In this document: piece by piece, positions 3,192-20,271 of the stretch
How the letters are laid out: each line of letters begins with the position of its first letter
Numbering within the stretch: the stretch's first letter is position 1
Assembly: GCF_029626035.1 (NCBI RefSeq)
Contig: NZ_JARUBE010000003.1
Span: 248,001 to 312,000 of the forward strand
DNA: 64,000 nt
Direction: 5' to 3'
From: Micromonospora sp. WMMD980
GTDB taxonomy: Bacteria; Actinomycetota; Actinomycetes; Mycobacteriales; Micromonosporaceae
Notes under the pieces: model-generated
What the model was told of the DNA's origin: nothing
The model's database searches: none
What the model saw: only the letters and a program-made list of their open reading frames with translations
Translations under genes and position numbers: made by a program

Positions 3192-4273
3192 GTGATACCG
3201 ATACCGCACTGCCCGCGCAGTCGCCGCCGGTGGACCGGGCGGAGACCGCCACGGCCGGCCCGGCGGCCCGGCTCTCCTGGTGGCGCGGCGACGGCGGGGA
3301 GGGCGCCAAGCGCAACCTCGGCCTGCTGGCCACGCTCGTGGTGCTGGTGGTCATCGGCGTCCTGACCCGTCCCGACCTCTACGGCGACCCGAACTGGGTG
3401 TGGGGCAACACGCTCACCATCCTCAAGCTCGCCTCGGTGGTCGGCGTGGTCACCGTCGGCATGACCTTCGTGATCATCGGCGGCGGCATCGACCTGTCGG
3501 TCGGCGCGATCGTGGCGCTGGCCGGCGTCTGGTGCACCACGGTCGCCACCCAGAGCTACGGCGCCGGCGGCATGATCTTCAGCGCGCTCACCGTCGGGCT
3601 GGCCGTCGGCGTGGTCAACGGGCTGCTCGTCTCGTACGGGCGACTGGTGCCGTTCATCGCCACCCTGGCCATGCTGGTCGCCGCCCGGGGGCTGGCCGCC
3701 GAGATCTCCGACAAGCAGACCCAGGTTTCCACCAGCTCGTTCATCAACGGCATCGCCACCACCAACGTGCTCGGCATCCCGCTGCTGGTCTACATCCTGG
3801 TCGCGGTGGTCGCGGCCGGTTGGGTGCTGCTCAACCGCACCACCTTCGGCCGTCGCACGGTGGCGGTCGGCGGCAACCCGGAGGCCGCCCGGCTCGCCGG
3901 CATCAACGTCCGCCGGCACACCGTGCTGCTCTACGCGCTGTCCGGCCTCTGCTGCGGCATCGCCGCGGTGATGCTGACCGCGCAGGCCACCTCCGCCCAG
4001 GCGGCGATGGCCAACCTCTACGAACTGGACGCGATCGCCGCCGCGATCATCGGCGGCACGCTGCTCAGCGGCGGGCGGGGCACCATCGTCGGCTCCCTGC
4101 TCGGCGTGATCATCTTCTCCACGATCACCAACCTGTTCGCCATCAACAACCTCTCCGCCGAGGCCCAGAACATGGTCAAGGGCGGCATCATCGTCGCCGC
4201 CGTCCTGGTCCAGCAGGTGCAGTTCCGCAGTCTGACCCAGTTCCTCGCCCGAAACCGGGCCACCACCGGCTGA
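3188..4273 (+). CDS. Sugar ABC transporter permease (RbsC type)
   Basis: 361 residues. After a soluble N-terminus of about 40 residues come roughly ten hydrophobic segments. Family landmarks are GGGIDLSVGAIVAL near the second helix, TTFGRRTVAVGGNPEAARLAGI in the cytoplasmic coupling loop and AAAIIGGTLLSGGRGT. It is the membrane channel for the importer and would form a homodimer with the fused ATPase. ATG 3188 overlaps the ATPase stop by 4 nt, which indicates translational coupling. Confidence 0.93.
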   Translation: MSDTDTALPAQSPPVDRAETATAGPAARLSWWRGDGGEGAKRNLGLLATLVVLVVIGVLTRPDLYGDPNWVWGNTLTILKLASVVGVVTVGMTFVIIGGGIDLSVGAIVALAGVWCTTVATQSYGAGGMIFSALTVGLAVGVVNGLLVSYGRLVPFIATLAMLVAARGLAAEISDKQTQVSTSSFINGIATTNVLGIPLLVYILVAVVAAGWVLLNRTTFGRRTVAVGGNPEAARLAGINVRRHTVLLYALSGLCCGIAAVMLTAQATSAQAAMANLYELDAIAAAIIGGTLLSGGRGTIVGSLLGVIIFSTITNLFAINNLSAEAQNMVKGGIIVAAVLVQQVQFRSLTQFLARNRATTG

Positions 4274-4365: not shown

Positions 4366-5409
4366 ATGACAAGTGACCTGTCACGCCGCCGGTTGCTCCT
4401 CGGCGGGGCCGCAGTCTCCGCCGGGGTGCTGCTCGCCGGCTGCACGAGCAACGAGCAGTCCCCGACCGAGGCGCAGACCAAGGCCGCCGCGAACAACGCC
4501 AACACCGAGCCGGGCAAGAAGGTGACCATCGGCTTCTCCGCCCCGGCCGCCGACCACGGGTGGATCGCCGCCATCACCAACAACGCCAAGGCGCAGGCCG
4601 GGGCGTACGGCGACGTGGAGCTCAAGTCGGTGGAGGCCGGCGCGGACGCGGCGGCCCAGCGGGCGGCGCTGTCCACGCTGATCTCGCAGAAGCCGGACGT
4701 GATCGTGCTGCTGCCGCACGACGGCAAGGAACTCAACGCGTTCGGCCTGGAGGCGATGAAGGCCGGCATCCCGGTGGTCAACCTGGACCGGGCGTTCCCG
4801 GACGCGCGCGCCTACCGGCTCCAGATCAAGGGCGACAACTACGGCATGGGGGTGGCCGCCGCCACCTACATCGCCGAGCAGCTCAAGGCCAAGGGCGTGA
4901 GCAACGCGGTGATCGGCGAGATCCCCGGCATCGAGTCGCTGGAGCTGACCCAGGAACGTTCCAAGGGCTTCGCCGACACGCTCGCCTCGTACGGGCTGAA
5001 GGTGGCCAACCGGCGGCCCGCCGAGTTCACCGTGGACTCCGGCCAGCAGGCCGCCACCGGGCTGTTCCAGGCCCTGCCGAAGATCGACGCGGTCTGGAAC
5101 CACGACGACGACCAGGGCATCGGCGTGCTGGCCGCGGTCAACCAGGCCAACCGCAAGGAGTTCTTCATGGTCGGCGGCGCCGGCTCGAAGAAGGCCATGG
5201 AGGACATCGCGGCCGACAACACGGTGCTCAAGGCCACCGTCACCTACAGCCCGTCGATGGCCTCCTCGGCCATCTCCCTGGCCCGGCTGATCGGGCAGGG
5301 CAAGGGCATGTCCGATCTGGTGGAACTCCAGGTGCCGAAGGAGATCGTGCTCTCCTCCGAGACGATCACCAAGCAGAACTCGGGCGACTACCTGAAGCTC
5401 GGGTTCTGA
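4366..5409 (+). CDS. Sugar ABC transporter substrate-binding lipoprotein
   Basis: 347 residues. The N-terminus has a Tat-like RRRLLLGG followed by lipobox LAGC (Cys near residue 26), so it is probably an exported lipoprotein. The body is a periplasmic-binding-protein type 1 fold (VTIGFSAPAADHGWIAAI; DVIVLLPHDG; GIPVVNLDRAF; WNHDDDQGIGVL), the ribose/inositol/xylose-binding class. AGGAGG at 4355-4360 sits 5 nt before ATG 4366. The 92-bp gap after the permease holds no evident terminator. The substrate is not determinable; the linked dehydrogenase and inositol-type genes make a cyclitol or glycoside reasonable. Confidence 0.92.
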   Translation: MTSDLSRRRLLLGGAAVSAGVLLAGCTSNEQSPTEAQTKAAANNANTEPGKKVTIGFSAPAADHGWIAAITNNAKAQAGAYGDVELKSVEAGADAAAQRAALSTLISQKPDVIVLLPHDGKELNAFGLEAMKAGIPVVNLDRAFPDARAYRLQIKGDNYGMGVAAATYIAEQLKAKGVSNAVIGEIPGIESLELTQERSKGFADTLASYGLKVANRRPAEFTVDSGQQAATGLFQALPKIDAVWNHDDDQGIGVLAAVNQANRKEFFMVGGAGSKKAMEDIAADNTVLKATVTYSPSMASSAISLARLIGQGKGMSDLVELQVPKEIVLSSETITKQNSGDYLKLGF

Positions 5410-5429: not shown

Positions 5430-6659
5430 TTGTCCAGTCACGACAGCATCCTGCGGGTCGGCATGGTCGGCTACGCGTTCATGGGCGCCGCGCACTCACA
5501 GGCGTGGCGCACCGTGAACCGGGTGTTCGACCTGCCGGCGAAGGTGCGGATGTCGCTCGTCTGCGGCCGGGACGAGCCGAAGGTGGCCGAGGCCGCCGAC
5601 CGGCTCGGCTGGGACGGGCACACCACCGACTGGCGCCGGCTCGTCGAGTCCGACGAGATCGACGTGGTCGACATCTGCACGCCGGGGGACAGCCACCGCG
5701 AGATCGCCCTCGCCGCGTTGGCCGCGGGCAAGCACGTGCTGTGCGAGAAGCCGCTGGCCAACACCGTCGCGGAGGCGCGGGAGATGACCGCCGCCGCCGC
5801 GCGGGCCCGGGAGTCCGGGGTCCGTGCGATGTGCGGCTTCAACTACCGGCGGGTGCCGGCGGTGGCCCTGATGCGGCAACTCGTCGCCGACGGGCGGCTC
5901 GGCGAGATCCGGCACGTCCGGGCGGTCTACCTCCAGGACTGGATCGTCGACCCGCAGTTCCCGCTGGTCTGGCGGTTGCAGAAGGACCGGGCGGGCTCCG
6001 GCGCGCTGGGCGACATCGGCGCGCACATCATCGACCTCACCCAGCACGTCACCGGGCAGTCGATCACCGGCGTCAGCGCGCTCACCGAGACGTTCGTGAA
6101 GCAGCGGCCGTTGCCGGCCGGGTCGAGCGGCCTGGCCGCGCAGGCCGGCGGCAACGGCCGGGGCACGGGCGAGGTCACCGTGGACGACGCGGCGGTCTTC
6201 GTGGCCCGGCTCGACGGCGGCGGGCTCGCCACCTACGAGGCGACCCGGTTCGCGACCGGCCGCAAGAACGCCCTGCGCGTCGAGATCAACGGCTCGCGTG
6301 GCAGCGTCGTGTTCGACCTGGAACGCCTCAACGAACTGGAGTTCCTGGACGCCACCCGACCCGCCGCCGAGCAGGGCTTCAACCGGATCCTGGTGACCGA
6401 GCCGGAGCACCCCTACCTGGACGCGTGGTGGCCGCCGGGCCACATCATCGGCTACGAGCACTCCTTCACCCACCAGATGCGCGACTTCGTCGAGGCGGTC
6501 GCCACCGGCGCCGACCCGAGGCCGTCGTTCGCCGACGCGTTGCAGGTGCAGTTGGTGCTGGACGCGGTGGCGCGGTCCGCCGCCGCCGCCGCGTGGGTCG
6601 AGGTGGAGAAGGAGGGGGCCCCGCTTAACGCCTCCGGTAGAGGAGGGGGCCCCGCTTAA
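5430..6659 (+). CDS. Gfo/Idh/MocA family oxidoreductase
   Basis: 409 residues. The N-terminal Rossmann domain (VGMVGYAFMGAAHSQAW) is followed by the family hallmark CEKPLANT at about residues 106-113, then the alpha/beta substrate domain with GDIGAHIIDL and CGFNYRR. Such enzymes oxidise sugars, cyclitols or glycosides with NAD(P), often at C3. TTG 5430 is used because GGGGGGAGA (5415-5423) precedes it; ATG 5463 is too far inside the fold. The last 15 or so residues (EGAPLNASGRGGGPA) and the TAA stop are supplied by an intergenic-type repeat (6611-6660), so the native C-terminus has been replaced or extended. Confidence 0.9.
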   Translation: MSSHDSILRVGMVGYAFMGAAHSQAWRTVNRVFDLPAKVRMSLVCGRDEPKVAEAADRLGWDGHTTDWRRLVESDEIDVVDICTPGDSHREIALAALAAGKHVLCEKPLANTVAEAREMTAAAARARESGVRAMCGFNYRRVPAVALMRQLVADGRLGEIRHVRAVYLQDWIVDPQFPLVWRLQKDRAGSGALGDIGAHIIDLTQHVTGQSITGVSALTETFVKQRPLPAGSSGLAAQAGGNGRGTGEVTVDDAAVFVARLDGGGLATYEATRFATGRKNALRVEINGSRGSVVFDLERLNELEFLDATRPAAEQGFNRILVTEPEHPYLDAWWPPGHIIGYEHSFTHQMRDFVEAVATGADPRPSFADALQVQLVLDAVARSAAAAAWVEVEKEGAPLNASGRGGGPA

Positions 6660-6660
6660 C
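6611..6660 (-). repeat. Two-unit GTTAAGCGGGGCCCC repeat, minus orientation
   Basis: On the minus strand two copies of GTTAAGCGGGGCCCCCTCC are separated by TCTACCGGAGGC. The same dimer layout, with a 12-nt spacer, occurs in the opposite orientation at 8750-8799. The repeat forms the end of the oxidoreductase gene, including its stop codon. GGGGCCCC is itself palindromic, so the unit can form a small hairpin. I recognise it as a dispersed short repeat of Micromonospora genomes; copy number here is two dimers. Confidence 0.75.
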
Positions 6661-6818
6661 AACCCGCCCACACCGTGCGGCGTGCGAGCGCCGCCGACAC
6701 CCTTCCGGCGCCGGCCGGCGAGGGCCCGCCACGGTTGCGCCCCGTGGCGGGGACGAGGCCGGCGTCGGGGGAGCGTGCCGCCGGGATCCTCCGGTCGGCA
6801 CGACCAGCACGGCCCTCC

Positions 6819-6885: not shown

Positions 6886-8034
6886 ATGCGTACGGGTGTC
6901 TGGCTGGTGGGGGCGCGCGGCTCGGTCGCCACCACCAGCGTGGTCGGGGCGCTGGCCCTGCGGGCCGGGCTCACCCCGTCGACCGGGTGCGTGACCGAGC
7001 TGCCCGAGCTGCGCGGTCCGGCGCTGCCCGGCCTCGGCGACCTCGTCTTCGGCGGTCACGACGTGGCCGCCACCCCGCTGACCAAACGCGCCGAGGCGCT
7101 CGCCGCCGCCGGGGTGCTGCCCGGCCGGCTGGTCGACGCCGTCGCGCCGGAGCTGGCCGGTGTCGAGGCGGCGCTACGGCCCGCGCCGACCGAGGGCACT
7201 CCGGCGGACCGGATCGCCGCCGTGGTCGACGACCTGACCGCGTTCCGCCGACGGCACGACCTGGACCGGGTGGTGGTGGTCAACGTCGCCGCCACCGAGC
7301 CGGCGGCCGAACCGCACCCGGCCCACCACGACCTGGCCGCGCTGCGGGCCGCGCTGACCGGCCCCGCCGACGTGCTGCCGGCCAGCTCCCGGTACGCGTA
7401 CGCGGCGTTCACCGCCGGCTGCCCGTACGTCGACTTCACCCCGTCCACCGGCGCCCGACTGCCGGCGCTGGCCGCGCTGGCCGACGCGCGCGGGCTGCCG
7501 TACGCCGGGCACGACGGCAAGACCGGCGAGACGCTGCTCAAGTCGGTGCTCGCGCCGATGTTCGCGATGCGGCACCTGGCGGTGCGTTCCTGGTCCGGCA
7601 CGAACCTGCTCGGCGGCGGCGACGGCGCGACGCTCGCCGAGCCGGCCGCCAACGCCGCCAAGGTGGGCAGCAAGCAACGGGTGCTCGCCGAGACGCTCGG
7701 CTACCTGCCGCAGGGCAGTACCCGGATCGACTACGTCGAGGAGCTGGGCGACTTCAAGACCGCCTGGGACCTGGTCACCTTCGCCGGTTTCCTGGGCACC
7801 GGGATGCGGATGGAGTTCACCTGGCACGGCTGCGACTCGGCGTTGGCCGCCCCGCTGGTGCTCGACCTGGCCCGGCTCACCGCCGCCGCGCACGCCGCCG
7901 GCCGTCGGGGGCCCCTGGCCGAGCTGGCGTTCTTCTTCAAGGATCCGCTCGGTGCCACCGGCCACGGGCTCGGTGAGCAGTGGGCGGTGCTGCGCGACTT
8001 CGCCGCCGGCCTGCACGCCGGGGTGGACCGGTGA
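6886..8034 (+). CDS. Inositol-3-phosphate synthase-like sugar-phosphate cyclase
   Basis: 382 residues. The N-terminal NAD-binding region (GVWLVGARGSVATT) and the catalytic-core motifs GHDGKTGETLLKS, WSGTNLLGGGDG, DFKTAWD and FKDPLG match myo-inositol-1-phosphate synthases, which convert glucose 6-phosphate to inositol phosphate with bound NAD. The GHDGK and KDPLG lysines are the catalytic type. Start ATG 6886 has GGGGAGG 7 nt upstream. It opens a coupled run (GTGA overlap with the next gene) of ebo-type genes and sits where other ebo clusters carry the cyclase EboD. The product may be a cyclitol other than plain inositol; that is inference. Confidence 0.85.
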   Translation: MRTGVWLVGARGSVATTSVVGALALRAGLTPSTGCVTELPELRGPALPGLGDLVFGGHDVAATPLTKRAEALAAAGVLPGRLVDAVAPELAGVEAALRPAPTEGTPADRIAAVVDDLTAFRRRHDLDRVVVVNVAATEPAAEPHPAHHDLAALRAALTGPADVLPASSRYAYAAFTAGCPYVDFTPSTGARLPALAALADARGLPYAGHDGKTGETLLKSVLAPMFAMRHLAVRSWSGTNLLGGGDGATLAEPAANAAKVGSKQRVLAETLGYLPQGSTRIDYVEELGDFKTAWDLVTFAGFLGTGMRMEFTWHGCDSALAAPLVLDLARLTAAAHAAGRRGPLAELAFFFKDPLGATGHGLGEQWAVLRDFAAGLHAGVDR

Positions 8035-9038
8035 CCCGGCTGGCCGACCTGGCCGAGCTGGTGCGCGCGCCCGCCGCGCTGTCCGTGCCCGGCGACGTGC
8101 TGGCCGGGGCGGCGGCCGTCGGCGCGCTCGGCCGGCGTACCCCCGCCCTGGCCGCCGCGTCGGTGCTGCTCTACTGGGCCGGGATGGCCGCCAACGACTG
8201 GGCCGACCGGCGGCTCGACGCGGTCGAGCGTCCGCAGCGGCCGATCCCGTCCGGGCGGGTCCGCCCCGCCGTCGCGCTCGGCCTGGCCGGCGGCCTGACC
8301 GCCGCCGGCCTGGCCGTCGCCACCGCCGCCGGGGGCCGGCGCGCGGCGACCGTCGCGGTCGGTCTGGCCGCCACCATCTGGGGGTACGACCTGAGCGCGA
8401 AGAACACCGCCGCCGGTCCCGCCGTGATGGCCGCGTGCCGAGGGCTGGACGTGCTGCTCGGCGCAACCACGACCCCGGCGGCCCGGGGATGCGCCCCCGG
8501 CGGCGGCCGTTGGCCCGGCGGCGGATCGTCCGGCACGGGCTGCGGTCGGGGTGCCGGCGGATCGGGCGGGGGCGTCGGATCGGCGTTGTCGCGGGCGCTG
8601 CCGACGGCGCTGACCGTCGCGGCGCACACCTGGACGGTCACCGCGCTGTCCCGCCGCGAGGTGACCGGCGCGGCCGACCGTCGGCTGCCCGCCTTCACGC
8701 TCGCCGGCACCGCGCTGATCGCGCTCGCCGCCCCGCGCCGGCCGACCTTGTTAAGCGGGGCCCCCTCCTCTACCGAATGCGTTAAGAAGGGGCCCTTCCT
8801 TCGCCTGCCGGTGGTGCTCGCGGCCGGGTACGCCGTGCGCTACGGGCGGGCGCAGGTTCGGGTGCTCGTCGACCCGTCGCCGGCCCGGGTGCGCGCCGCG
8901 GTCGGCGCCGGCATCACCGGGCTGCCCGCGTTGCAGGGCGCGCTGACCGCGCGGGCCGGCGCGGGGCTGCTCGGCCTCGCGGTGGCCGCCGCCGCCCCGC
9001 TCGGCCGCCGCCTGGCCCGACTGATCTCCCCGACATGA
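8031..9038 (+). CDS. UbiA-like integral membrane protein (EboC / SCO3242 type)
   Basis: 335 residues, many in hydrophobic helices. The UbiA-type Asp-rich motif NDWADRRLD lies at about residues 56-64 and RPQRPIPSG follows, as in prenyltransferases that join an isoprenoid to an acceptor; a second Asp-rich site (WGYDLSAKN) is partial. GTG 8031 overlaps the cyclase stop and its own stop overlaps the next ATG. Two oddities: a Gly-rich stretch (about residues 150-180, GGGRWPGGGSSG) in a loop, and an in-frame dispersed repeat at 8750-8799 encoding LLSGAPSSTECVKKGPF. Both probably lie in loops. Membrane-bound EboC is thought to handle the ebo cargo; enzymatic activity is unproven. Confidence 0.82.
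   Translation: MTRLADLAELVRAPAALSVPGDVLAGAAAVGALGRRTPALAAASVLLYWAGMAANDWADRRLDAVERPQRPIPSGRVRPAVALGLAGGLTAAGLAVATAAGGRRAATVAVGLAATIWGYDLSAKNTAAGPAVMAACRGLDVLLGATTTPAARGCAPGGGRWPGGGSSGTGCGRGAGGSGGGVGSALSRALPTALTVAAHTWTVTALSRREVTGAADRRLPAFTLAGTALIALAAPRRPTLLSGAPSSTECVKKGPFLRLPVVLAAGYAVRYGRAQVRVLVDPSPARVRAAVGAGITGLPALQGALTARAGAGLLGLAVAAAAPLGRRLARLISPT
8750..8799 (+). repeat. Two-unit GTTAAG repeat inserted in frame in the eboC-like gene
   Basis: GTTAAGCGGGGCCCCCTCC, then the spacer TCTACCGAATGC, then GTTAAGAAGGGGCCCTTCC. This is the same dimer as at 6611-6660 but in opposite orientation and with a slightly different second unit. It is read through in frame and adds about 17 residues between two hydrophobic segments. 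The two dimers bracket the cyclase gene and most of this gene. Confidence 0.75.
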
Positions 9039-9925
9039 CCGCCGTGACGCCGGCCGCCGCGCCCCGCCGGCCCGCGCCCGCTCCGGGCCGGCTGCGATTC
9101 GGGTACGGCACCAACGGCTTCGCCAACCACCGCCTCGACGACGCGCTCGGGGTGCTCGCCGACCTCGGCTACGCGGGGGTCGCGCTCACCCTGGACCACG
9201 ACCACCTGGACCCGTTCGCGCCCGGGCTGGCCCGCCGGGTGGACGCCGTGCGCCGCCGGCTGGGCGCGCTGGGGCTGGCCGTGGTGGTCGAGACCGGGGC
9301 CCGCTACCTGCTCGACCCGTGGCACAAGCACGCCCCGACGCTGCTGCACGACGATCCGTCCCGCCGGATCGAACTCCTCCGCCGGGCCGTGCGGATCGGG
9401 GCGGACCTGGGCGCCGAGGCGGTCTCCTTCTGGGCCGGCGTCCGCCCGCCCGAGGTGCCGCCCCGGGTGGCGTGGGAGCGCCTGGTCGCCGGGTGCGCGA
9501 CGGTCTGCGCCGGGGCGGGCGGCGTGCCGCTGGGCTTCGAGCCGGAGCCGGGCATGCTGGTCGAGGACATCGCCGGCTGGCGGCGGCTGCGCGCGGCGCT
9601 CGGTGAACCGCCCGGTTTCGGCATCACCCTGGACATCGGGCACTGCCGCTGCCTGGAGCCGCTGCCGGTGCCCGAGTGCGTGACGGCGGTCGCCGACCAC
9701 CTGGTCAACGTGCAGATCGACGACATGCGCCGGGGCGTGCACGAGCACCTGGAGTTCGGCGCTGGCGAGATCGACTTCCCGCCGGTGCTGGCCGCCCTCG
9801 CCGACGCCGGCTACCCCGGCCTGGTGGCGGTGGAGCTGCCCCGACACTCGCACGCCGCCCCGACCGTCGCCGCCCGCTCGCTGGACTTCCTGCGCGTCGC
9901 CGCCCGGCGCGGCGAGGGGCGGTGA
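9035..9925 (+). CDS. Sugar phosphate isomerase/epimerase-like TIM barrel
   Basis: 296 residues, AP-endonuclease-2/xylose-isomerase-like barrel. Visible strands carry FGYGTNGFANHRLDDAL, VVVETGARYLLDP, GFEPEPGMLVEDI (metal-binding Glu residues), GITLDIGHCRCLEP and LVNVQIDDM...HEHLEFGAGEIDFP. These are the usual metal-ligand positions (E, D/H, H, E). It may isomerise, epimerise or cleave a keto-sugar. ATG 9035 overlaps the preceding stop by 4 nt. GFEPEPG.LVE is shared with the EboE gene at 11420, so the operon encodes two related barrels. No EboD-type gene is found beside it. Confidence 0.82.
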   Translation: MTAVTPAAAPRRPAPAPGRLRFGYGTNGFANHRLDDALGVLADLGYAGVALTLDHDHLDPFAPGLARRVDAVRRRLGALGLAVVVETGARYLLDPWHKHAPTLLHDDPSRRIELLRRAVRIGADLGAEAVSFWAGVRPPEVPPRVAWERLVAGCATVCAGAGGVPLGFEPEPGMLVEDIAGWRRLRAALGEPPGFGITLDIGHCRCLEPLPVPECVTAVADHLVNVQIDDMRRGVHEHLEFGAGEIDFPPVLAALADAGYPGLVAVELPRHSHAAPTVAARSLDFLRVAARRGEGR

Positions 9926-9961
9926 CCGACCACCTTCCACCACCGGCAGAGGGGAGACGGC

Positions 9962-10567
9962 ATGACACCCGACCGACTGCGCGCCGCGCTGCGGGGCGTA
10001 CCCGATCCGCAGTGGCTGGACGCGGCGCTGCGCCGCGTCGCGAGCGAACCCGCGGCGATCCCGCGCTACTTCGCCCCCGCCGCCCGGCGGTGCGGACGCG
10101 GGCCGGTGCCCGACCCGCCCGGCTGGACCGTCGACGAGGCCGCCCGGGCGCTGCTGCTGACCGCGCTGCCCGGCGGGCACGCCACCGCCGCCGAGACGCT
10201 CTACCGGGAGGGCGACGCCGCCGAGAAGCGGGCCGTGCTGCGGGCGCTGCCGCTGCTGCCGATCGGGGCGGAGTGCGTGCCGCTGCTGCACGACGCGATC
10301 CGCACCAACGACACCCGGCTGGTCGCCGCCGCGCTCGGCCCCTACGCCCGGCACCTGGAGCAGCCGGCCTGGCGGCAGGCGGTGCTGAAGTGCGTCTTCG
10401 CCGGCGTGCCGCTGGCCGTGGTGGACGGCCTGACCGAGCGGGCCGACGGCGAGCTGGCGCAGATGCTCGCCGCGTACACCGCCGAGCGGCACGCCGCCGG
10501 ACGGACCATGCCCGCCGACGCCACCGAGCTGCTCGACCGGCTCACCATCACCACCACGGAGGCGTGA
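9962..10567 (+). CDS. eboA: EboA domain protein
   Basis: 201 residues, all-alpha and soluble, without signal peptide. The sequence (WLDAALRRVASEP; RALPLLPIGAECVPLLHDA; VLKCVFAGVPL) matches what I know of EboA, the defining protein of the ebo/EDB cluster. Its biochemical role is unknown; in cyanobacteria the cluster is needed to move the scytonemin monomer to the periplasm. The repeated helical pattern resembles HEAT-like scaffolds. ATG 9962 follows GGGGAGACGG with good spacing, 36 nt after the barrel gene. Start and identity are both well supported by context. Confidence 0.82.
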   Translation: MTPDRLRAALRGVPDPQWLDAALRRVASEPAAIPRYFAPAARRCGRGPVPDPPGWTVDEAARALLLTALPGGHATAAETLYREGDAAEKRAVLRALPLLPIGAECVPLLHDAIRTNDTRLVAAALGPYARHLEQPAWRQAVLKCVFAGVPLAVVDGLTERADGELAQMLAAYTAERHAAGRTMPADATELLDRLTITTTEA

Positions 10568-10568
10568 C

Positions 10569-11420
10569 ATGCGCATCTTCGACCCGCACATCCACATGAC
10601 GTCGCGGACCACCGACGACTACGAGCGGATGGCCGCCGCCGGGGTGCGGGCGGTGGTCGAACCGGCGTTCTGGCTGGGCCAGCCGCGCACCAGCGTGCAG
10701 AGCTTCGTCGACTACTTCGACTCGCTGGTCGGCTGGGAGCCGTTCCGGGCCGGGCAGTTCGGTGTCCGGCACCACGCCACGGTGGCGCTGAACCCGAAGG
10801 AGGCCAACGACCCGCGCTGCCGCCCGGTGCTCGACGTGCTGCCCCGCTATCTGGACAAGGACGGCGTGGTGGCGGTCGGCGAGATCGGCTACGACGCGAT
10901 GACCCCGGCCGAGGACGCCGCGCTGGCCGGGCAGCTCGCGCTGGCCGTCGCGCACGACCTGCCCGCCCTGGTGCACACCCCGCACCGGGACAAGGCGCGC
11001 GGCGTCGAGCGCACCCTGGCGGTGGTCGCCGAGTCGGGCATCGCACCCGGGCGGGTGCTGATCGACCACCTCAACGAGGTGACCGTGGAGCTGGTCCGGG
11101 ACACCGGCTGCTGGCTCGGCTTCTCGATCTATCCGGAGACCAAGATGTCGCCGCCGCGGATGGTCGAGCTGCTGAAGGCGTACGGGACGGAGCGGATGCT
11201 GGTCAACTCGGCCGCCGACTGGGGGCGCTCCGACCCGCTGCTGACCCGGGCCACCGGGGAGGCGATGCTGGCCGCCGGGTTCGACGCCGACGACGTGGAC
11301 CGGGTGCTGTGGCGCAACCCGGTGGAGTTCTACGGCCAGTCCGGCCGGCTGGACCTCACCGACCTGGAGGACCCGGCCGCCACGTTCGCCGGCAACTCGA
11401 TCCTGCGTGGGGGCGCGTGA
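10569..11420 (+). CDS. eboB: TatD family metal-dependent hydrolase (EboB-like)
   Basis: 283 residues. N-terminal FDPHIHM gives the two first metal ligands; GEIGYD (catalytic/metal Glu), LVHTPH (His), LIDHLNE (His) and NSAADWG (terminal Asp) supply the others, so the amidohydrolase centre looks intact. TatD enzymes are nucleases or hydrolases, but EboB members with the cluster probably act on a small metabolite. The gene starts 1 nt after EboA stop and its TGA shares a base with the next ATG (TGATG), so the operon is tightly coupled. Confidence 0.82.
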   Translation: MRIFDPHIHMTSRTTDDYERMAAAGVRAVVEPAFWLGQPRTSVQSFVDYFDSLVGWEPFRAGQFGVRHHATVALNPKEANDPRCRPVLDVLPRYLDKDGVVAVGEIGYDAMTPAEDAALAGQLALAVAHDLPALVHTPHRDKARGVERTLAVVAESGIAPGRVLIDHLNEVTVELVRDTGCWLGFSIYPETKMSPPRMVELLKAYGTERMLVNSAADWGRSDPLLTRATGEAMLAAGFDADDVDRVLWRNPVEFYGQSGRLDLTDLEDPAATFAGNSILRGGA

Positions 11421-12595
11421 TGCGGCTGCGCCACGCCGACGGCACCACCGTCCACCTCGGCTACTGCACGAACGTCCACCCGGCGGAGGACCTGCCGGGC
11501 ATCCTCGCCCAGCTCGACACCTACGCGGTCGCGGTGCGCCGGCGACTCGACGCCGACCTGCTCGGGCTGGGGCTGTGGCTGGCCGCGCCGGTGGCCGCCG
11601 CGCTCGCCGCCGACCCGGCGGCCCGCCGCCGGCTGCGCCACGAGCTGACCGTACGCGGGTTGGAGGTGGTCACGCTCAACGGCTTCCCGTACGCGGCGTT
11701 CCAGGCGCCGGTGGTCAAGGGCGCGGTCTACCGGCCGGACTGGACCACGCCGGAGCGCCTCGCGTACACCCTGGACCTGGCCCGGGTGCTCGCCGACCTG
11801 CTGCCCGACGACGCGGCCCGGGGGTCGATCTCGACGCTGCCGCTGGCCTGGCGCACGCCGTGGGGCCCGGACCGGGCCGACACCGCCCGGCGTCGGCTCG
11901 ACGCGCTCGCCGCCGGGCTGGCCGCGGTGCGCCTCGACACCGGCCGGACGGTCCGGGTCGGGTTCGAGCCGGAGCCCGGCTGCCTGGTCGAGTCGACCGG
12001 GCAGGCCGCCACCGCCCTGTCCGGCGTGGACCCGGAGTGGCTCGGGATCTGCCTGGACCTGGCGCACCTGGCGTGCGCCTGGGAGGAGCCGGTCGAGGCG
12101 CTGGCCCGGCTGCGCGACGCCGGGCTGCCGGTGGTCAAGGTGCAGGTGTCGGCCGCCGTCGAGGCGCCCGACCCGGCCGGCGCGACCGAGGCGCTGCGCC
12201 GCTTCGTCGAGCCGAGGTTCCTGCACCAGACCCGGGCGGCCGGCTGTGCCGGCGCCGCCGACCCGGCCGACCCGGCGTGGGCGGCCGACGACCTGGAGGC
12301 GGCGCTGGACGCGCGGCTGCCGGGGGCGTGGCGGGTGCACTACCACGTGCCGCTGCACGCCCCGCCGGAGGAACCGTTGCGCTCGACCGTGCCGGTGCTG
12401 CGGGCCACCCTCGCCGCGCTGTACGCCGGACCGGCCGCCGGCTGCGACCACCTCGACGTGGAGACGTACACCTGGGGTGTGCTGCCGGAGGCGCGGCGGC
12501 CGCGCGGCGACGCGGAGCTGGCCGCCGGCATCGCCGCCGAACTGGCCTTCGCCCGCGACGAGCTGGGCGCTGTCGGGGTGGGGGTGTCCTCATGA
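11420..12595 (+). CDS. eboE: Metabolite traffic protein EboE
   Basis: 391 residues. The start (LGYCTNVHPAEDLPGILAQL) is the EboE hallmark; GFEPEPGCLVES and GICLDLAHLACAWEE give a TIM-barrel metal site of the sugar isomerase/epimerase type, and HYHVPLHAPPEEPL lies near the C-terminus. It is presumed cytoplasmic and acts on the unknown ebo cargo. It overlaps EboB by one base and the next gene by ATGA. Length and motif order agree with the family. Confidence 0.85.
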   Translation: MRLRHADGTTVHLGYCTNVHPAEDLPGILAQLDTYAVAVRRRLDADLLGLGLWLAAPVAAALAADPAARRRLRHELTVRGLEVVTLNGFPYAAFQAPVVKGAVYRPDWTTPERLAYTLDLARVLADLLPDDAARGSISTLPLAWRTPWGPDRADTARRRLDALAAGLAAVRLDTGRTVRVGFEPEPGCLVESTGQAATALSGVDPEWLGICLDLAHLACAWEEPVEALARLRDAGLPVVKVQVSAAVEAPDPAGATEALRRFVEPRFLHQTRAAGCAGAADPADPAWAADDLEAALDARLPGAWRVHYHVPLHAPPEEPLRSTVPVLRATLAALYAGPAAGCDHLDVETYTWGVLPEARRPRGDAELAAGIAAELAFARDELGAVGVGVSS

Positions 12596-13995
12596 GCCGG
12601 CGGCTGGTGGTGCTCGACGTGGTCGGGCTGACGCCGCGGCTGCTGGCGCACATGCCGCGGCTGCGCGCGGTGGCCGATGCCGGTTTCGCCGCCGAGCTGG
12701 GCACCGTGCTGCCGGCGGTGACCTGCTCGGCGCAGGCCACCTTCCTCACCGGCGAGCCGCCCGCCGGGCACGGCGTGGTGGGCAACGGCTGGTACTTCCG
12801 GGACCTCGGCGAGGTGCTGCTCTGGCGGCAGCACCACGCGCTCGTCGGCGGCGAGAAGGTGTGGCAGGCGGCCCGCCGCGTCGAGCCGGGCTACCGGGTG
12901 GCGAACGTCTGCTGGTGGTACGCGATGGGCGCGGACGTCGACTGGACGGTCACGCCGCGTCCGGTCTACCACGCCGACGGGCGCAAGGAGCCGGACTGCT
13001 GGACCGACCCGCCGGAGCTGCACGACACGCTCACCGACGCGCTCGGGGTGTTCCCGCTGTTCAGCTACTGGGGGCCGGGCGCGGGGCTGCCGTCCTCGGC
13101 GTGGATCAGCCGGGCCGCGCAGCGGATCCTCGCCGACCACGCCCCCGACCTGACCCTGGTCTACCTGCCGCACCTCGACTACGACCTGCAACGCTTCGGC
13201 CCGTCCGCGCCGCGGGCCGCCGTCGCGGCGGCGGAGCTGGACGCGGTGCTCGGGCCGCTGCTGGACGCGGCGCGCGAGCGCGACGCCACGGTGGTGGCGT
13301 TGTCGGAGTACGGCATCACCGACGTGTCCCGCCCGGTGGACGTCAACCGGATGCTGCGCGCCGAGGGGCTGCTGCGGGTGCACACCCAGGCCGGGATGGA
13401 ATACCTGGAACCGTGGACGTCGCGGGCCTTCGCGGTGGCCGACCACCAGGTCGCGCACGTCTACGTGCGGGACCCGGCGGACGTGCCGGCGGTGGCGAAG
13501 CTCTGCGCCGCGCTGCCCGGTGTGGCCGAGGTGCTGGACGCGGCCGGGCAGGCCGGGTACGGGCTGGACCACGCCCGCTCCGGTGAGCTGGTGCTGGTGG
13601 CCGAGCCGGACGCCTGGTTCACCTACTACTACTGGCTGGACGACGCGCGGGCGCCCGACTTCGCCCGGCTGGTCGAGATCCACCGCAAGCCGGGCTACGA
13701 CCCGGCCGAGCTGTTCTTCGACCCGGCCGCGCCGGGCGCGGCGAAGCGCCGGGCGGCGGTGGCGCTGGCCCGCAAGAAGCTCGGGATGCGCTACCTGATG
13801 AGCGTGGTGGGGCTGGACGCGGGCGCGCGGGCGGTGCGTGGTTCGCACGGGCGGCTGCCGGCCGACCCGGCGGACGGGCCGGTGCTGCTCTGTTCCGACC
13901 CGGCGGCGGCCCGGGAGCGGGTCGAGGCGACCGAGGTGAAGGCGCTGCTGCTCCACCTCGCCGGCCTAACTTTTGTCGATCCGCGTCAAAAGTAG
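12592..13995 (+). CDS. Nucleotide pyrophosphatase/phosphodiesterase-like protein (EboF-like)
   Basis: 467 residues, alkaline phosphatase superfamily. VLDVVGL provides the first Asp ligand, TCSAQATFLTG the nucleophile Thr, YLPHLDYDLQRFGP the Asp/His ligands, ALSEYGITDV a further acidic ligand and VRGSHG a late His. This matches NPP-type phosphodiesterases found in ebo clusters; the cargo may be phosphorylated or nucleotide-linked. No signal peptide is evident. ATG 12592 overlaps EboE. The last nine codons contain the inverted-repeat operator of the next operon, so the gene end is constrained by two functions. Confidence 0.8.
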   Translation: MSRRLVVLDVVGLTPRLLAHMPRLRAVADAGFAAELGTVLPAVTCSAQATFLTGEPPAGHGVVGNGWYFRDLGEVLLWRQHHALVGGEKVWQAARRVEPGYRVANVCWWYAMGADVDWTVTPRPVYHADGRKEPDCWTDPPELHDTLTDALGVFPLFSYWGPGAGLPSSAWISRAAQRILADHAPDLTLVYLPHLDYDLQRFGPSAPRAAVAAAELDAVLGPLLDAARERDATVVALSEYGITDVSRPVDVNRMLRAEGLLRVHTQAGMEYLEPWTSRAFAVADHQVAHVYVRDPADVPAVAKLCAALPGVAEVLDAAGQAGYGLDHARSGELVLVAEPDAWFTYYYWLDDARAPDFARLVEIHRKPGYDPAELFFDPAAPGAAKRRAAVALARKKLGMRYLMSVVGLDAGARAVRGSHGRLPADPADGPVLLCSDPAAARERVEATEVKALLLHLAGLTFVDPRQK

Positions 13996-14131: not shown

Positions 14132-16969
14132 ATGTCCAGCCACCCCCACCACCCACCCGCCCGACGACGACTGGCCGCCGGCGCGGCGCTGCTGCTCGCC
14201 GCCACCGCCGGCACGGTCGCCCTGGCCGCGACGCCCGTCCCGGCGTCCGCCCACCCCATCCCGGCGAGCGACTTCCAGCAGGTCGAGCTGGCCCGCGGCG
14301 TCGCCGAGACCGGCGAGCCGATGTCGCTCGCGGTGCTGCCCGACCGCTCGGTCCTGCACACCGCCCGCAACGGCACACTGCGCCGCACCGACGCGGCCGG
14401 CGTCACCACGGTCGTCGGCACCCTCGCCGTCTACACCCACGACGAGGAGGGGTTGCAGGGCGTCGGCGTCGACCCCGGCTTCGCCGCCAACCGGCACATC
14501 TACCTCTACTACGCGCCGCCGCTCTCCACCCCGGCCGGGGACGCGCCGGCCACCGGCACCGACTTCTCCGCCTGGCAGGGCGTCAACCGGCTCTCCCGGT
14601 TCACGCTCAACGCCGACTTCACGCTCAACCAGGCGAGCAAGGTCGACGTGCTCGACGTGCCGGCCGACCGAGGACTCTGCTGCCACGTCGGCGGCGACAT
14701 CGACTTCGACGCGGCCGGCAACCTCTACCTCTCCACCGGCGACGACACCAACCCGTTCGACTCCGCCGGTTACGCCCCGATCGACGAGCGCGCCAACCGC
14801 AACCCCGGATACGACGCGCAGCGCAGCGCCGGCAACACCAACGACCTGCGCGGCAAGATCCTCCGGATCAAGGTCAACGCCAACGGCACCTACTCGATCC
14901 CCAGCGGCAACCTCTTCGCGCCCGGCACCGCGAAGACCCGCCCGGAGATCTACGCGATGGGCTTCCGCAACCCGTTCCGGATGAGCGTCGACAAGGCCAC
15001 CGGCATCGTCTACGTCGGCGACTACGGGCCGGACGCCGGGACCACCTCGGCGCGCGGCCCGTCCGGGCAGGTCGAGTTCGACCGGGTCACCGGGCCCGGC
15101 AACTACGGCTGGCCGTACTGCACCGGCACCAACACGGCCACCGAGACGTACGCCGAGTGGGACTTCGCCACCGGCACGGCCGGCGCGAAGTTCAACTGCA
15201 CCGGCGGGCCGACCAACAACTCGTTCCGCAACACCGGCCTGGCGACGCTGCCGGCCGCCAAGCCGGCCTGGATCCGCTACGGCGGCGACGCCGGCACCCC
15301 GAGCGAGTTCGGCGGCGGCTCCGAGTCGCCGATGGGCGGGCCGGTCTACCGCTACGACGCGGCCAACCCGTCCACCACCAAGTTCCCGCAGTCCTTCGAC
15401 GGGCAGTTCTTCGCCACCGAGTTCGGGCGCGGCTGGATCAAGCCGATCCACCTCAACGCCGACGGCTCGCCCGGCACCATCGACGCGTTTCCGTGGACCG
15501 GCAAGCAGGTGATGGACTCCGCGTTCGGCCCGGACGGCGCCTACTACGTGCTCGACTACGGCACCGGCTACTTCAACGGCGACGCCAACTCGGCGCTCTA
15601 CCGCTTCGACTACCTGGGCGGCGGCAACCGCGCCCCGGTGGCCCGGGCCGCCGCCGACCGGACCTCCGGCGCCGCGCCGCTGGCGGTGGCGTTCTCCTCG
15701 GCCGGCTCGTCCGACCCGGAGGGGGGCGCGCTCACCTACTCCTGGGCGTTCGGCGACGGCGGCACCTCCACCGCGGCCAACCCGTCGCACACCTACACCG
15801 CCAACGGCCGCTACACCGCCACGCTGACCGTCCGCGACCCGCAGGGCGCCACCGGCACCGCGAGCGTGGTGATCACCGTCGGCAACACCGCGCCGACAGT
15901 GGTCATCGAGACGCCCGGCAACGGCAAGCTCTTCTCCTTCGGCGACACGGTCCCGTTCCGGATCACCGTCACCGACCCGGAGGACGCCACCATCGACTGC
16001 ACCAAGGTCAAGATGACCTACGTGCTCGGCCACGACCAGCACGGCCACCAGATCACCTCGGCGACCGGCTGCACCGGCACGATAGCCATCCCGGTGGACG
16101 GCGAGCACGACGACGCGGCGAACATCTTCGCCATCTTCGACGCCGAGTACACCGACTCCGGCGGCCTCACCACCCACACCCAGCACACGCTCCAGCCCCG
16201 GCACCGGCAGGCCGAGCACTTCAAGACCTCGTCCGGGATCAACACGTTCGACAAGGGCACCGCCGAGGGCGGCAAGACCGTCGGCGACATCCACAACGGC
16301 GACTGGATCGCGTTCCAGCCGTACCTGCTCGCCGACGCCACCGGGTTCAGCGCCCGGGTCTCCTCGGCCGGCGCGGGCGGCACGCTCCAGGTGCGGGCCG
16401 GCTCGGCCACCGGCACCGTGCTCGGCTCGGCCACCGTCCCGGTCACCGGCGCCTGGGACTCGTTCACCACGGTCACCGGCGCCCTCACCAACCCGCCGGC
16501 CGGCACCACCACGCTCTACCTCACGTTCGCCGGCGGCACCGGGGCGCTCTACGACCTGGACGCGTTCACGTTCACCACCTCGGCCGTGCGGACCGGGCCG
16601 GTGAAGGGACTGGCCGGCAAGTGCCTCGACGTGCGCAACGCGGCGACCGCCGACGGCACCCAGATCCAGATCTACACCTGCAACGGCACCGCCGCGCAGA
16701 CGTGGACCGTGACGCCCAACTCGACAGTGCAGGCGTACGGCAAGTGCCTGGACGTGTCCGGCGGGGCGAGCGCGGACGGCACGAAGATCCAGCTCTGGAC
16801 GTGCAACGGCACCGGCGCGCAGAACTGGTCGGCGCAGGCCGACGGCACGGTGCGCAACCCGCAGTCCGGCAAGTGCCTCGACGTCAGCGGCAACAACTCC
16901 GCCGACAGCACGCCGGTGCACCTGTGGACCTGCACGGCCGCCGCCAACCAGAAGTGGACGCTGCCGTGA
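14132..16969 (+). CDS. Secreted PQQ-type glucose/sorbosone dehydrogenase with PKD, CBM6-like and ricin-type lectin domains
   Basis: 945 residues. Signal peptide at 1-40 ending near ASA-HP. Residues about 45-495 are a soluble glucose/sorbosone dehydrogenase beta-propeller (DEEGLQGVGVDPGFA, GDIDFDAAGNLYLSTGDD, GMGFRNPFRMSVDKATG-like, GNYGWPYC). A PKD domain follows at about 505-590 (SSDPEGGALTYSWAFGDG), then a beta-rich segment, a CBM6-like module near 695-820 and a ricin B lectin with repeated GKCLDV at about 825-945. It should oxidise sugars outside the cell while bound to polysaccharide. ATG 14132 has AGGAAGG 10 nt upstream. The lectin region is nearly identical to that of the next gene. Confidence 0.88.
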   Translation: MSSHPHHPPARRRLAAGAALLLAATAGTVALAATPVPASAHPIPASDFQQVELARGVAETGEPMSLAVLPDRSVLHTARNGTLRRTDAAGVTTVVGTLAVYTHDEEGLQGVGVDPGFAANRHIYLYYAPPLSTPAGDAPATGTDFSAWQGVNRLSRFTLNADFTLNQASKVDVLDVPADRGLCCHVGGDIDFDAAGNLYLSTGDDTNPFDSAGYAPIDERANRNPGYDAQRSAGNTNDLRGKILRIKVNANGTYSIPSGNLFAPGTAKTRPEIYAMGFRNPFRMSVDKATGIVYVGDYGPDAGTTSARGPSGQVEFDRVTGPGNYGWPYCTGTNTATETYAEWDFATGTAGAKFNCTGGPTNNSFRNTGLATLPAAKPAWIRYGGDAGTPSEFGGGSESPMGGPVYRYDAANPSTTKFPQSFDGQFFATEFGRGWIKPIHLNADGSPGTIDAFPWTGKQVMDSAFGPDGAYYVLDYGTGYFNGDANSALYRFDYLGGGNRAPVARAAADRTSGAAPLAVAFSSAGSSDPEGGALTYSWAFGDGGTSTAANPSHTYTANGRYTATLTVRDPQGATGTASVVITVGNTAPTVVIETPGNGKLFSFGDTVPFRITVTDPEDATIDCTKVKMTYVLGHDQHGHQITSATGCTGTIAIPVDGEHDDAANIFAIFDAEYTDSGGLTTHTQHTLQPRHRQAEHFKTSSGINTFDKGTAEGGKTVGDIHNGDWIAFQPYLLADATGFSARVSSAGAGGTLQVRAGSATGTVLGSATVPVTGAWDSFTTVTGALTNPPAGTTTLYLTFAGGTGALYDLDAFTFTTSAVRTGPVKGLAGKCLDVRNAATADGTQIQIYTCNGTAAQTWTVTPNSTVQAYGKCLDVSGGASADGTKIQLWTCNGTGAQNWSAQADGTVRNPQSGKCLDVSGNNSADSTPVHLWTCTAAANQKWTLP
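16610..16969 (+). repeat. Near-identical 360-bp ricin-lectin module, copy 1
   Basis: From CTGGCCGGCAAG to the stop codon this 360-bp segment aligns without gaps to 18730-19089. Blocks of 50-64 bp are identical, including synonymous positions, which points to recent duplication or gene conversion between the two secreted-enzyme genes. Confidence 0.8.
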
Positions 16970-16989
16970 GGTGGGAAGGAAGAACGACG

Positions 16990-19263: not shown

Positions 19264-20271
19264 ATGGCGCGACCGATCACGCTCTTCACCGGCCAGTGGG
19301 CCGATCTTCCGTTCGACGAGGTCTGCCGGCTCGCCGCCGAGTGGGGGTACGACGGCCTGGAGATCGCCTGCTGGGGCGACCACTTCGAGGTCGACAAGGC
19401 GCTCGCCGACGACTCCTACGTCGAGCGCAGGCGGGAGACCCTGGCCAAGCACAACCTCCAGGTCTTCACGATCTCCAACCACCTGGTCGGGCAGGCGGTC
19501 TGCGACCACCCGATCGACGAGCGGCACCAGGACATCCTGCCCGCCCGGATCTGGGGCGACGGCGAGCCGGAGGGGGTGCGCCACCGGGCCGCCGAGGAGA
19601 TGAAGGACACCGCGCTGGCGGCGGCGAAGCTCGGCGTACGCACCGTGGTCGGCTTCACCGGGTCGTCGATCTGGCACACGCTGGCGATGTTCCCGCCGGT
19701 GCCGCCCGCCATGATCGAGCGCGGCTACCAGGACTTCGCCGACCGGTGGAACCCGATCCTGGACGTCTTCGACGAGGTGGGCGTGCGCTTCGCGCACGAG
19801 GTGCACCCCAGCGAGATCGCCTACGACTACTGGACCACGAAGCGCACGCTGGAGGCGATCGGCCACCGGGAGGCGTTCGGGCTCAACTGGGACCCGTCGC
19901 ACTTCGTCTGGCAGGAACTGGACCCGGTCAACTTCATCTTCGACTTCGCCGACCGGATCTACCACGTGGACTGCAAGGACGCGAAGGTCCGCACCGGCGA
20001 CGGCCGGCGCGGCCGGCTCTCCTCCCACCTGCCCTGGGCCGACCTGCGACGCGGCTGGGACTTCGTCTCCACCGGCCACGGCGACGTGCCGTGGGAGGAC
20101 TGCTTCCGGGCGTTGAACGCGATCGGCTACGCCGGCCCGATCTCGATCGAGTGGGAGGACGCCGGCATGGACCGCCTGGTCGGCGCGCCCGAGGCGCTCC
20201 AGTTCGTCCGCCGCCTGGCCTTCGACGCCCCGAGCGCGGCGTTCGACGCCGCCTTCAGCAGCCGCGACTGA
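19264..20271 (+). CDS. Sugar phosphate isomerase/epimerase
   Basis: 335 residues, TIM barrel of the AP-endonuclease-2/IolE-like family, cytoplasmic. Motifs: [35 protein letters not shown] at the start, [34 protein letters not shown] and [12 protein letters not shown], which give the expected Glu/Asp/His metal site. Homologs accompany Gfo/Idh/MocA enzymes in keto-sugar and inositol catabolism. GGGGAGAAGG lies just before ATG 19264. The 174-bp gap upstream has no obvious terminator, so it may be read from the secreted-enzyme operon. Confidence 0.88.

Follow-up and report, generated by a model that had tools for sequence, protein, structure and literature searches.

The window analysed here is a 64,000-nucleotide stretch of the 6.83 Mb genome of Micromonospora sp. 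WMMD980 (contig NZ_JARUBE010000003.1, positions 248,001 to 312,000). Between positions 6886 and 13995 it carried seven closely packed plus-strand genes that, judged by family scores and gene order, are an ebo module (EboA, EboB, an EboC-like protein, EboE, and EboF) without EboD, of a subtype in which a myo-inositol phosphate synthase (MIPS)-type cyclase takes the EboD place. A sequence-only reading of the window had predicted this gene set and the position of the cyclase, and both were borne out. The cyclase (6886–8034) contained NAD_binding_5 (PF07994, 163 bits) and Inos-1-P_synth (PF01658, 100 bits) domains, both scoring above their cut-offs. It was followed by an EboC-like UbiA prenyltransferase of the SCO3242 family (8031–9038; NF045897, 361 bits, cut-off 260); a xylose-isomerase-like TIM barrel, here TIM1 (9035–9925; PF01261, 115 bits); an EboA-domain protein (9962–10567; NF035938, 164 bits, cut-off 50); EboB, a TatD-type hydrolase (10569–11420; PF01026, 40 bits, cut-off 27); EboE, starting at GTG 11417 or ATG 11420 (11417–12595; NF035939, 408 bits, cut-off 250); and EboF, with a type I phosphodiesterase/nucleotide-pyrophosphatase fold (12592–13995; PF01663, 206 bits). 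The EboA and EboE genes were the sole copies found in the genome. Four of the six gene junctions were 4-bp overlaps (MIPS/EboC, EboC/TIM1, EboB/EboE with the GTG start, and EboE/EboF); the TIM1–EboA and EboA–EboB gaps were 36 and 1 bp.

The module resembled the eboA–F operon in EboA, EboB, EboE, EboF, the kind of UbiA protein (EboC), and its clustered, co-oriented genes, and differed in that the operon as described has EboD where the window has MIPS and TIM1 (Yurchenko et al., 2016; PMC5133447). EboB was 41–58%, EboE 27–38%, and EboF 43–56% identical between the window and all seven EboD-type loci compared. Two window proteins did not reach the cut-offs of further models: EboC scored 113 bits with NF035940 (EboC; cut-off 250) and EboA 86 bits with the narrower family NF035937 (cut-off 320). 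The UbiA protein of the EboD-type Ketogulonicigenium locus also fell below both EboC-model cut-offs (85 and 80 bits), so NF035940 and NF045897 are both narrow models. Because EboD was not found, the module was filed as an ebo variant and not as a classical ebo operon. Its gene order recurred across many actinobacterial families, which argues against a chance arrangement, and the idea of a local oddity was rejected on the same ground.

Profile searches found no EboD-class protein in the genome of the window. Models of six EboD proteins scored the held-out seventh at 481–575 bits and the two dehydroquinate-synthase-like proteins of this genome at 121–142 bits, so an EboD hidden elsewhere in the genome, a possibility raised with the sequence-only reading, was rejected. 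A seven-protein EboD profile gave a top score of 189.8 bits over 296 actinobacterial genomes, with up to six candidates scored per genome; some match occurred in 272 of the 296, as AroB-like proteins would give. Conversely, MIPS and TIM1 were found in none of the seven EboD-type loci (Ketogulonicigenium, Deinococcus, Mycetohabitans, Azospirillum, Roseivivax, Salipiger, and Aureibacter; E ≤ 1e-3, up to about 9 kb from EboE), while TIM1 was found in 68 of 69 actinobacterial MIPS loci. An eighth non-actinobacterial locus, on a plasmid of Gemmatirosa (Gemmatimonadota), encoded MIPS (47% identity), TIM1 (48%), EboC, EboF, EboB, and EboE in a different order, with TIM1 adjoining MIPS; EboA was not found there by similarity. 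A 108-amino-acid open reading frame without a Pfam match lay between EboB and EboE of this locus (L121, 8542–8865) and may correspond to the EboG of Yurchenko et al. All eight comparison loci came from plasmid records and form a biased sample. Since the seven EboD-type loci lack both proteins and the single Gemmatirosa locus has the pair, the exchange looks like one of EboD for MIPS plus TIM1. The earlier proposal of a one-enzyme exchange thus stands for the replacement of EboD by MIPS and is incomplete in that TIM1 comes as well.

The MIPS-type module is the usual actinobacterial form of ebo. EboE was present in 14 of 296 sampled actinobacterial genomes, 13 of them above the cut-off, and MIPS lay ahead of EboE in 12 of 14 sampled loci (from 13 genomes, that of the window excluded) in the order MIPS-C-TIM1-A-B-E-F. 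Among named genomes, a profile scan yielded 591 confirmed loci, and the best 80 were analysed. Ten of these were cut by contig ends, leaving 70 decidable loci, 57 with MIPS upstream of EboE and 13 without. Pooling the two sets gave 69 MIPS loci and 15 MIPS-less loci; three loci fetched later (L187, L188, and L190) belong to neither. Families with the module included Micromonosporaceae, Streptosporangiaceae, Thermomonosporaceae, Pseudonocardiaceae, Streptomycetaceae, and Jiangellaceae, and the closest of the best 80 named loci was that of Micromonospora humi (EboE 95% identical). Within the class of the window, a PF07994 MIPS (E ≤ 1e-3) was present in nine of nine EboE genomes vs. none of 17 others, a comparison that ignores shared ancestry. 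Housekeeping enzymes of the INO1 type score about 20 bits with PF07994, below its cut-off.

All 13 MIPS-less loci among the best 80 named loci were from Streptomyces. Nine of their genomes had a second EboE locus with MIPS at most 5 kb upstream, and in a tenth (G310) MIPS lay beside pieces of EboC, TIM1, and EboA that stop at contig ends. Altogether, a PF07994 MIPS was located elsewhere in 12 of the 13 genomes, ten times beside other ebo genes and twice in a sugar locus (G299 and G305); the thirteenth genome (G307) contained EboE and no PF07994 match. Dispensability of MIPS was therefore rejected as a reading of the MIPS-less loci. L072, L082, L085, L086, L094, L097, L099, L025, and L190 represent another, MIPS-free ebo type of Streptomyces, with gamma-glutamyltransferase-like, phosphatase, and FAD oxidoreductase genes ahead of it and often a P450-like gene behind. 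An upstream set of gamma-glutamyltransferase-like, inositol-monophosphatase-superfamily, and FAD oxidoreductase genes was found in eight of the 15 MIPS-less loci, and a P450-like gene in nine; the gamma-glutamyltransferase and P450 labels are our own, from sequence, and one FAD gene and one phosphatase were scanned. A link to inositol through the phosphatase-superfamily gene was dropped, as the best NCBIfam match of the member scanned was the histidinol-phosphatase HisN at 132 bits (cut-off 275). The sampled locus L037 (G279), counted as MIPS-less, was degenerate, with EboE as two fragments in different frames, a split EboC, and no adjoining MIPS.

The window MIPS is of the archaeal type, and its nearest solved relative was the Archaeoglobus fulgidus enzyme (1u1i, 247 bits); M. 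tuberculosis INO1 scored 24 bits. Three positions mutated in the A. fulgidus entries 3qvw, 3qvx, and 3qw2, numbered K278, K367, and N255 from the alignment, were retained in the window protein. Eight positions that we take to be active-site positions (D225, N255, L257, K274, K278, K306, D332, and K367, A. fulgidus numbering) were unchanged in all 96 ebo-clade rows, which include 10 duplicates and thus represent 86 distinct genes. The enzymes differed at D259 and in being encoded, for the window, in an ebo operon: the D259 position held Gly throughout the 96 ebo-clade rows, and all 19 of the other actinobacterial MIPS examined had Asn there. On the tree, from which 13 duplicate MIPS loci and four of 123 MIPS reading frames with less than 70% profile coverage were left out beforehand, the actinobacterial ebo MIPS formed one clade (SH-aLRT 99) apart from the 19 others (100). 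The Gemmatirosa MIPS lay outside this clade, next to A. fulgidus on a long branch of uncertain placement. The window MIPS scored 22 bits with the housekeeping INO1 model TIGR03450, short of the cut-off of 638, and a separate INO1 at 666 bits (L004) was present elsewhere in the genome. A housekeeping role for the window MIPS, for want of another copy, would have counted against the sequence-only reading and was rejected on this basis.

Relatives of the cyclase occurred in other settings of the same genome. One MIPS paralogue, L002, fell within the ebo clade on the tree. An ebo-clade MIPS in L039 (C3:1509500–1528500) lay beside a DegT-type aminotransferase gene and a carrier-domain gene, together with genes that we label adenylation-like and PLP-decarboxylase-like, and the gene content of this locus resembles that of an aminocyclitol-containing natural product cluster. 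A second MIPS operon, L038/L191 (C3:1126487–1135987), encoded MIPS, an HD-like protein, a methyltransferase-like protein, Gfo, a metallo-beta-lactamase-like protein, YcaO, a TIM1 paralogue (51% identical), a group 1 glycosyltransferase, and a PIG-L deacetylase. We assigned the names methyltransferase and beta-lactamase from sequence. No ebo gene was found by tblastn in that stretch, and the operon appears to encode the synthesis of a glycosylated inositol product. Kin of TIM1 thus occur in another likely cyclitol setting. In TIM1 itself, Glu171, Asp200, His203, and Glu267 were invariant in 12 of 12 aligned rows, presumably as the metal site of the isomerase superfamily, and the TIM1 profile matched many sugar-phosphate epimerases and isomerases, IolI and IolE among them.

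The remainder of the module was conserved across both types. EboB, EboE, and EboF had 87, 66, and 110 columns, respectively, in which 97% or more of the 101, 101, and 98 aligned rows agreed, and fixed differences between the actinobacterial rows and six EboD-type rows were limited to zero, two, and three columns. Mainly because these cores are common to both types, we take the two cyclases to feed one downstream chemistry. EboF kept Thr44, the presumed nucleophile, and Asp196.

The module lay within an unbroken plus-strand gene run in high-GC DNA, as delimited by a codon-usage gene caller trained on the ebo genes, from a ROK-family regulator (397–1575; PF00480, 183 bits) to a second xylose-isomerase-like TIM barrel, TIM2 (19264–20271; PF01261, 149 bits). 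Upstream were the ATPase of a sugar importer of the AraG/RbsA class (1572–3191; AraG model, 528 bits, cut-off of 689 not reached), its permease (3230–4273; PF02653, 129 bits), a sugar-binding protein to which no specificity was assigned (4393–5409; PF13407, 132 bits; top NCBIfam match, 71 bits), and a levoglucosan-dehydrogenase-like Gfo/Idh/MocA dehydrogenase, Gfo (5430–6659; NF052479, 371 bits, cut-off 650; inositol 2-dehydrogenase IolG, 121 bits). The sequence-only reading had called the importer one of the ribose/inositol type and had counted the dehydrogenase towards inositol. The importer belongs to the AraG/AraH/ribose class, with no support for the inositol part, and Gfo scored higher with levoglucosan dehydrogenase than with IolG, so the two were rejected as proof of an inositol cargo. 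Downstream, and ahead of TIM2, were a glucose/sorbosone dehydrogenase-type protein with PKD, CBM6, and ricin-B domains, GSDH (14132–16969; PF07995, 109 bits), and a protein combining ThuA, a 3-keto-disaccharide hydrolase domain (PF06439), CBM6, and ricin-B (16990–19089; PF06283, 269 bits; PF06439, 132 bits). Both proteins are probably secreted, to judge by their N-termini (that of GSDH is signal-like) and their lectin and carbohydrate-binding domains. CBM6 and ricin-B stood at the C-termini of both (14132–19089), and because of these common domains the two may share a polysaccharide or glycan target. A GGGGCCCC-centred repeat (GTTAAG then GGGGCCCC, twice per site) was observed at 6610–6662, ahead of the operon, and at 8750–8805, in frame within a variable-length loop of eboC; the in-frame copy was also present in the closest relative, L041.

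Similar neighbours recurred elsewhere. Among the 69 MIPS loci, GSDH was found in 39, TIM2 in 30, ThuA in 26, TIMtat in 21, and Gfo in 20; GSDH, TIM2, ThuA, and TIMtat were found in none of the 15 MIPS-less loci. Of the 69, 26 had a polyprenyl synthase gene (the member scanned matched PF00348): one ahead of MIPS, one downstream of eboF on the opposite strand, and the others downstream of eboF. On Streptomyces plasmid L131 the module lay between aromatase/cyclase, FAD monooxygenase, and methyltransferase genes; tailoring genes of this kind form part, in the sister plasmid L130, of a type II polyketide cluster that includes ketosynthase genes. EboE of L130 (9989–11167) lay in that cluster with no other ebo gene found within 10 kb. 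The module of Streptomyces plasmid L132 adjoined a peptide synthetase gene, and on L125 a ‘ScyD/ScyE family protein’ preceded MIPS. We take this protein, GSDH, and ScyE of Nostoc to share a beta-propeller fold.

A close characterised system is the ebo cluster of Nostoc punctiforme, which encodes the same Ebo proteins as the window and was shown to act in export of the scytonemin monomer (Klicki et al., 2018; PMC6282210), the sole metabolite with a demonstrated export role in the ebo literature cited here. It is of the EboD type with the scytonemin monomer as cargo; the window module is of the MIPS type. A lipid carrier for passage of the metabolite across the membrane was proposed in the same paper, and its periplasmic ScyE may be a partner comparable to GSDH of the window and to the ScyD/ScyE protein of L125. 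The word ‘inositol’ is absent from the main text of Yurchenko et al. (2016; PMC5133447) and from the passages in which Beemelmanns and colleagues show Saccharomonospora ebo loci (PMC9235831). The sequence-only reading had pointed to a related gene order near SCO3242 of S. coelicolor. This fits: NF045897, whose cut-off the window EboC exceeds, is named after SCO3242, and the calcium-dependent antibiotic (CDA) cluster (SCO3210–SCO3249) lists SCO3242 as ‘putative transferase’, SCO3243 as ‘myo-inositol phosphate synthase’, and SCO3237 as ‘phosphodiesterase’ in the gene descriptions given (PMC3610822; PMC8981147). The levoglucosan/3-keto-glycoside pathway (LgdA etc.), as far as its published outline goes, is matched by Gfo, which is most like levoglucosan dehydrogenase, and by TIM barrels and PF06439 nearby; Gfo is below the levoglucosan dehydrogenase family cut-off (371 of 650 bits), and the likeness seen here is one of single genes (PMC7676230). 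Public plasmid annotation already names parts of the module individually, and no description of a MIPS-type ebo operon was found among the matches listed for open-licence papers.

We tentatively propose that the MIPS-subtype module makes a prenyl-cyclitol that forms all or part of the lipid carrier for metabolite transport in the sense of Klicki et al. The proposal draws on anatomy, exclusion, co-occurrence, and residue conservation, from which all reactions are inferred. MIPS, whose catalytic residues are in place, would convert glucose 6-phosphate to myo-inositol 1(3)-phosphate. TIM1, by its superfamily, would isomerise or epimerise the cyclitol or its keto form to a compound resembling the EboD product. 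EboC would then add an isoprenyl chain, supplied in many relatives by the polyprenyl diphosphate synthase encoded next to it, and EboB, EboE, and EboF would tailor the product, with EboA possibly aiding assembly. The MIPS variant fits the carrier proposal and would give it an inositol-derived headgroup. The sequence-only reading took the cargo to be, or to be joined to, a cyclitol; the cyclitol may instead be the headgroup of the lipid carrier.

Several observations weigh against this proposal. Gln, Glu, and Tyr occupy EboF positions that align, weakly, with what we take to be metal ligands of phosphonoacetate hydrolase; because several ligands typical of the superfamily are replaced, EboF activity is not to be assumed. 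The Gly at the D259 position means that the substrate of ebo-clade MIPS may differ from glucose 6-phosphate. By tblastn over the 69 MIPS loci, EboC was missing from L111, EboC and EboF from L093, and EboC, EboF, and TIM1 from L066 (Herbidospora mongoliensis), where MIPS, EboA, EboB, and EboE were present; L066 thus breaks the pairing of MIPS and TIM1 at the level of the locus. In G299 and G305, MIPS lies apart from the ebo genes in a sugar locus of the order ROK-importer-Gfo-(TIM2)-MIPS-TIMtat-GSDH. The polyprenyl synthase gene that follows eboF in most Micromonospora relatives is missing from the window and from M. humi, and the recurring glycoside-oxidation neighbours are not accounted for by a lipid carrier. 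From the literature, a lipid-linked scytonemin monomer was not seen by Klicki et al. (PMC6282210), and EboC homologues of Bacteroidota, in the in vitro assays reported, farnesylate the aromatic acid 8-HQA, which is no cyclitol (PMC9235831).

One alternative is a change of cyclase substrate. Under this explanation, which we regard as unlikely, ebo MIPS cyclises another sugar phosphate, e.g., sedoheptulose 7-phosphate, to the C7 cyclitol of EboD, and the end product is the same. The common EboB, EboE, and EboF cores are simplest if both cyclases deliver the same substrate, the Gly is fixed at an active-site loop position, and a solved MIPS relative with another substrate, the five-membered-cyclitol-phosphate synthase 6k96, matched the window protein at 45 bits. 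The eight other active-site positions checked are, however, as in A. fulgidus MIPS, TIM1 would be superfluous, and the aminocyclitol-like setting of the ebo-clade MIPS of L039, outside any ebo locus and beside its DegT-type aminotransferase gene, fits an ordinary inositol product.

The flanking genes suggest a different explanation, in which MIPS and its neighbours (importer, Gfo 3-dehydrogenase, GSDH, ThuA/3-keto-disaccharide hydrolase, and TIM isomerases) are a glycoside or anhydrosugar oxidation system that ebo serves, for instance with a lipid or cofactor for the oxidases, and not a secondary metabolite. At least one of GSDH, ThuA, TIM2, and TIMtat was near 49 of the 69 MIPS loci vs. none of the 15 MIPS-less loci, and a PF07995 gene lay within 12 kb of EboE in nine of the 14 EboE genomes of the evenly drawn sample, where about 0.3 genomes would be expected (our arithmetic of matches × 24 kb/genome size, which ignores shared ancestry). 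The second ebo loci of G299 and G305 (L187 and L188), with a 101-amino-acid MIPS remnant or none, still carried ThuA, TIM2, TIMtat, and Gfo, and in these two genomes MIPS itself is in the sugar locus. Comparable flanks occurred outside the actinobacteria: Gfo, TIM2, and TIMtat homologues around the Gemmatirosa module, two Gfo genes and a TIM gene around the EboD-type Ketogulonicigenium module, a PQQ-dependent dehydrogenase gene after the Salipiger module, and a sugar importer after the Azospirillum module, the last two also EboD-type. Yet such genes were absent within 10 kb of the module in L131 and L132, with their polyketide tailoring and peptide synthetase genes; 20 of the 69 MIPS loci, some of them short stretches, had none of GSDH, ThuA, TIM2, and TIMtat; and the accounts of EboA–F in the cited ebo literature give these proteins no catabolic role. 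We regard this explanation as improbable. That MIPS is incidental, a source of myo-inositol for the cell at large or for a single neighbouring product, beside an actinobacterial ebo that needs no cyclase, is very unlikely: MIPS was absent upstream in 13 of the 70 decidable and two of the 14 sampled loci and had no match in G307, but the gene order is conserved across numerous families, the gene set recurs in a second phylum, co-occurrence was exact in the class of the window, the genome already has an INO1, and 12 of 13 genomes with MIPS-less named loci hold MIPS elsewhere.

A prenylated inositol-type lipid serving a transport or maturation step is thus the best reading of the module, one to which we give a little less than an even chance. 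Because unrelated ring-making enzymes have been exchanged while a conserved core was kept, the actinobacterial loci are independent evidence for a cyclitol at the centre of ebo, whose product has been an open question since the genes were named. More speculatively, and at a strength that we would call doubtful, ebo could lead to a so far undescribed class of prenylated cyclitol lipids, entered interchangeably through EboD or through MIPS plus TIM1, the actinobacterial ring being inositol-derived and the lipid acting as carrier or membrane cofactor for secreted oxidising enzymes of the GSDH/ScyE type and for antibiotics such as CDA. If so, the EboD product, too, would be a C6 ring of the inosose kind formed from glucose 6-phosphate, contrary to the published sedoheptulose 7-phosphate proposal. 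MIPS is a tractable ebo enzyme, as assays of its activity are routine and inositol lends itself to labelling and feeding. The proposal would also provide a concrete hypothesis for the unexplained CDA cluster genes SCO3237, SCO3242, and SCO3243, and probably for those between, SCO3238–SCO3241 being presumably the counterparts of EboE, EboB, EboA, and TIM1. The same hypothesis would extend to the module in other antibiotic-type clusters of Streptomyces.

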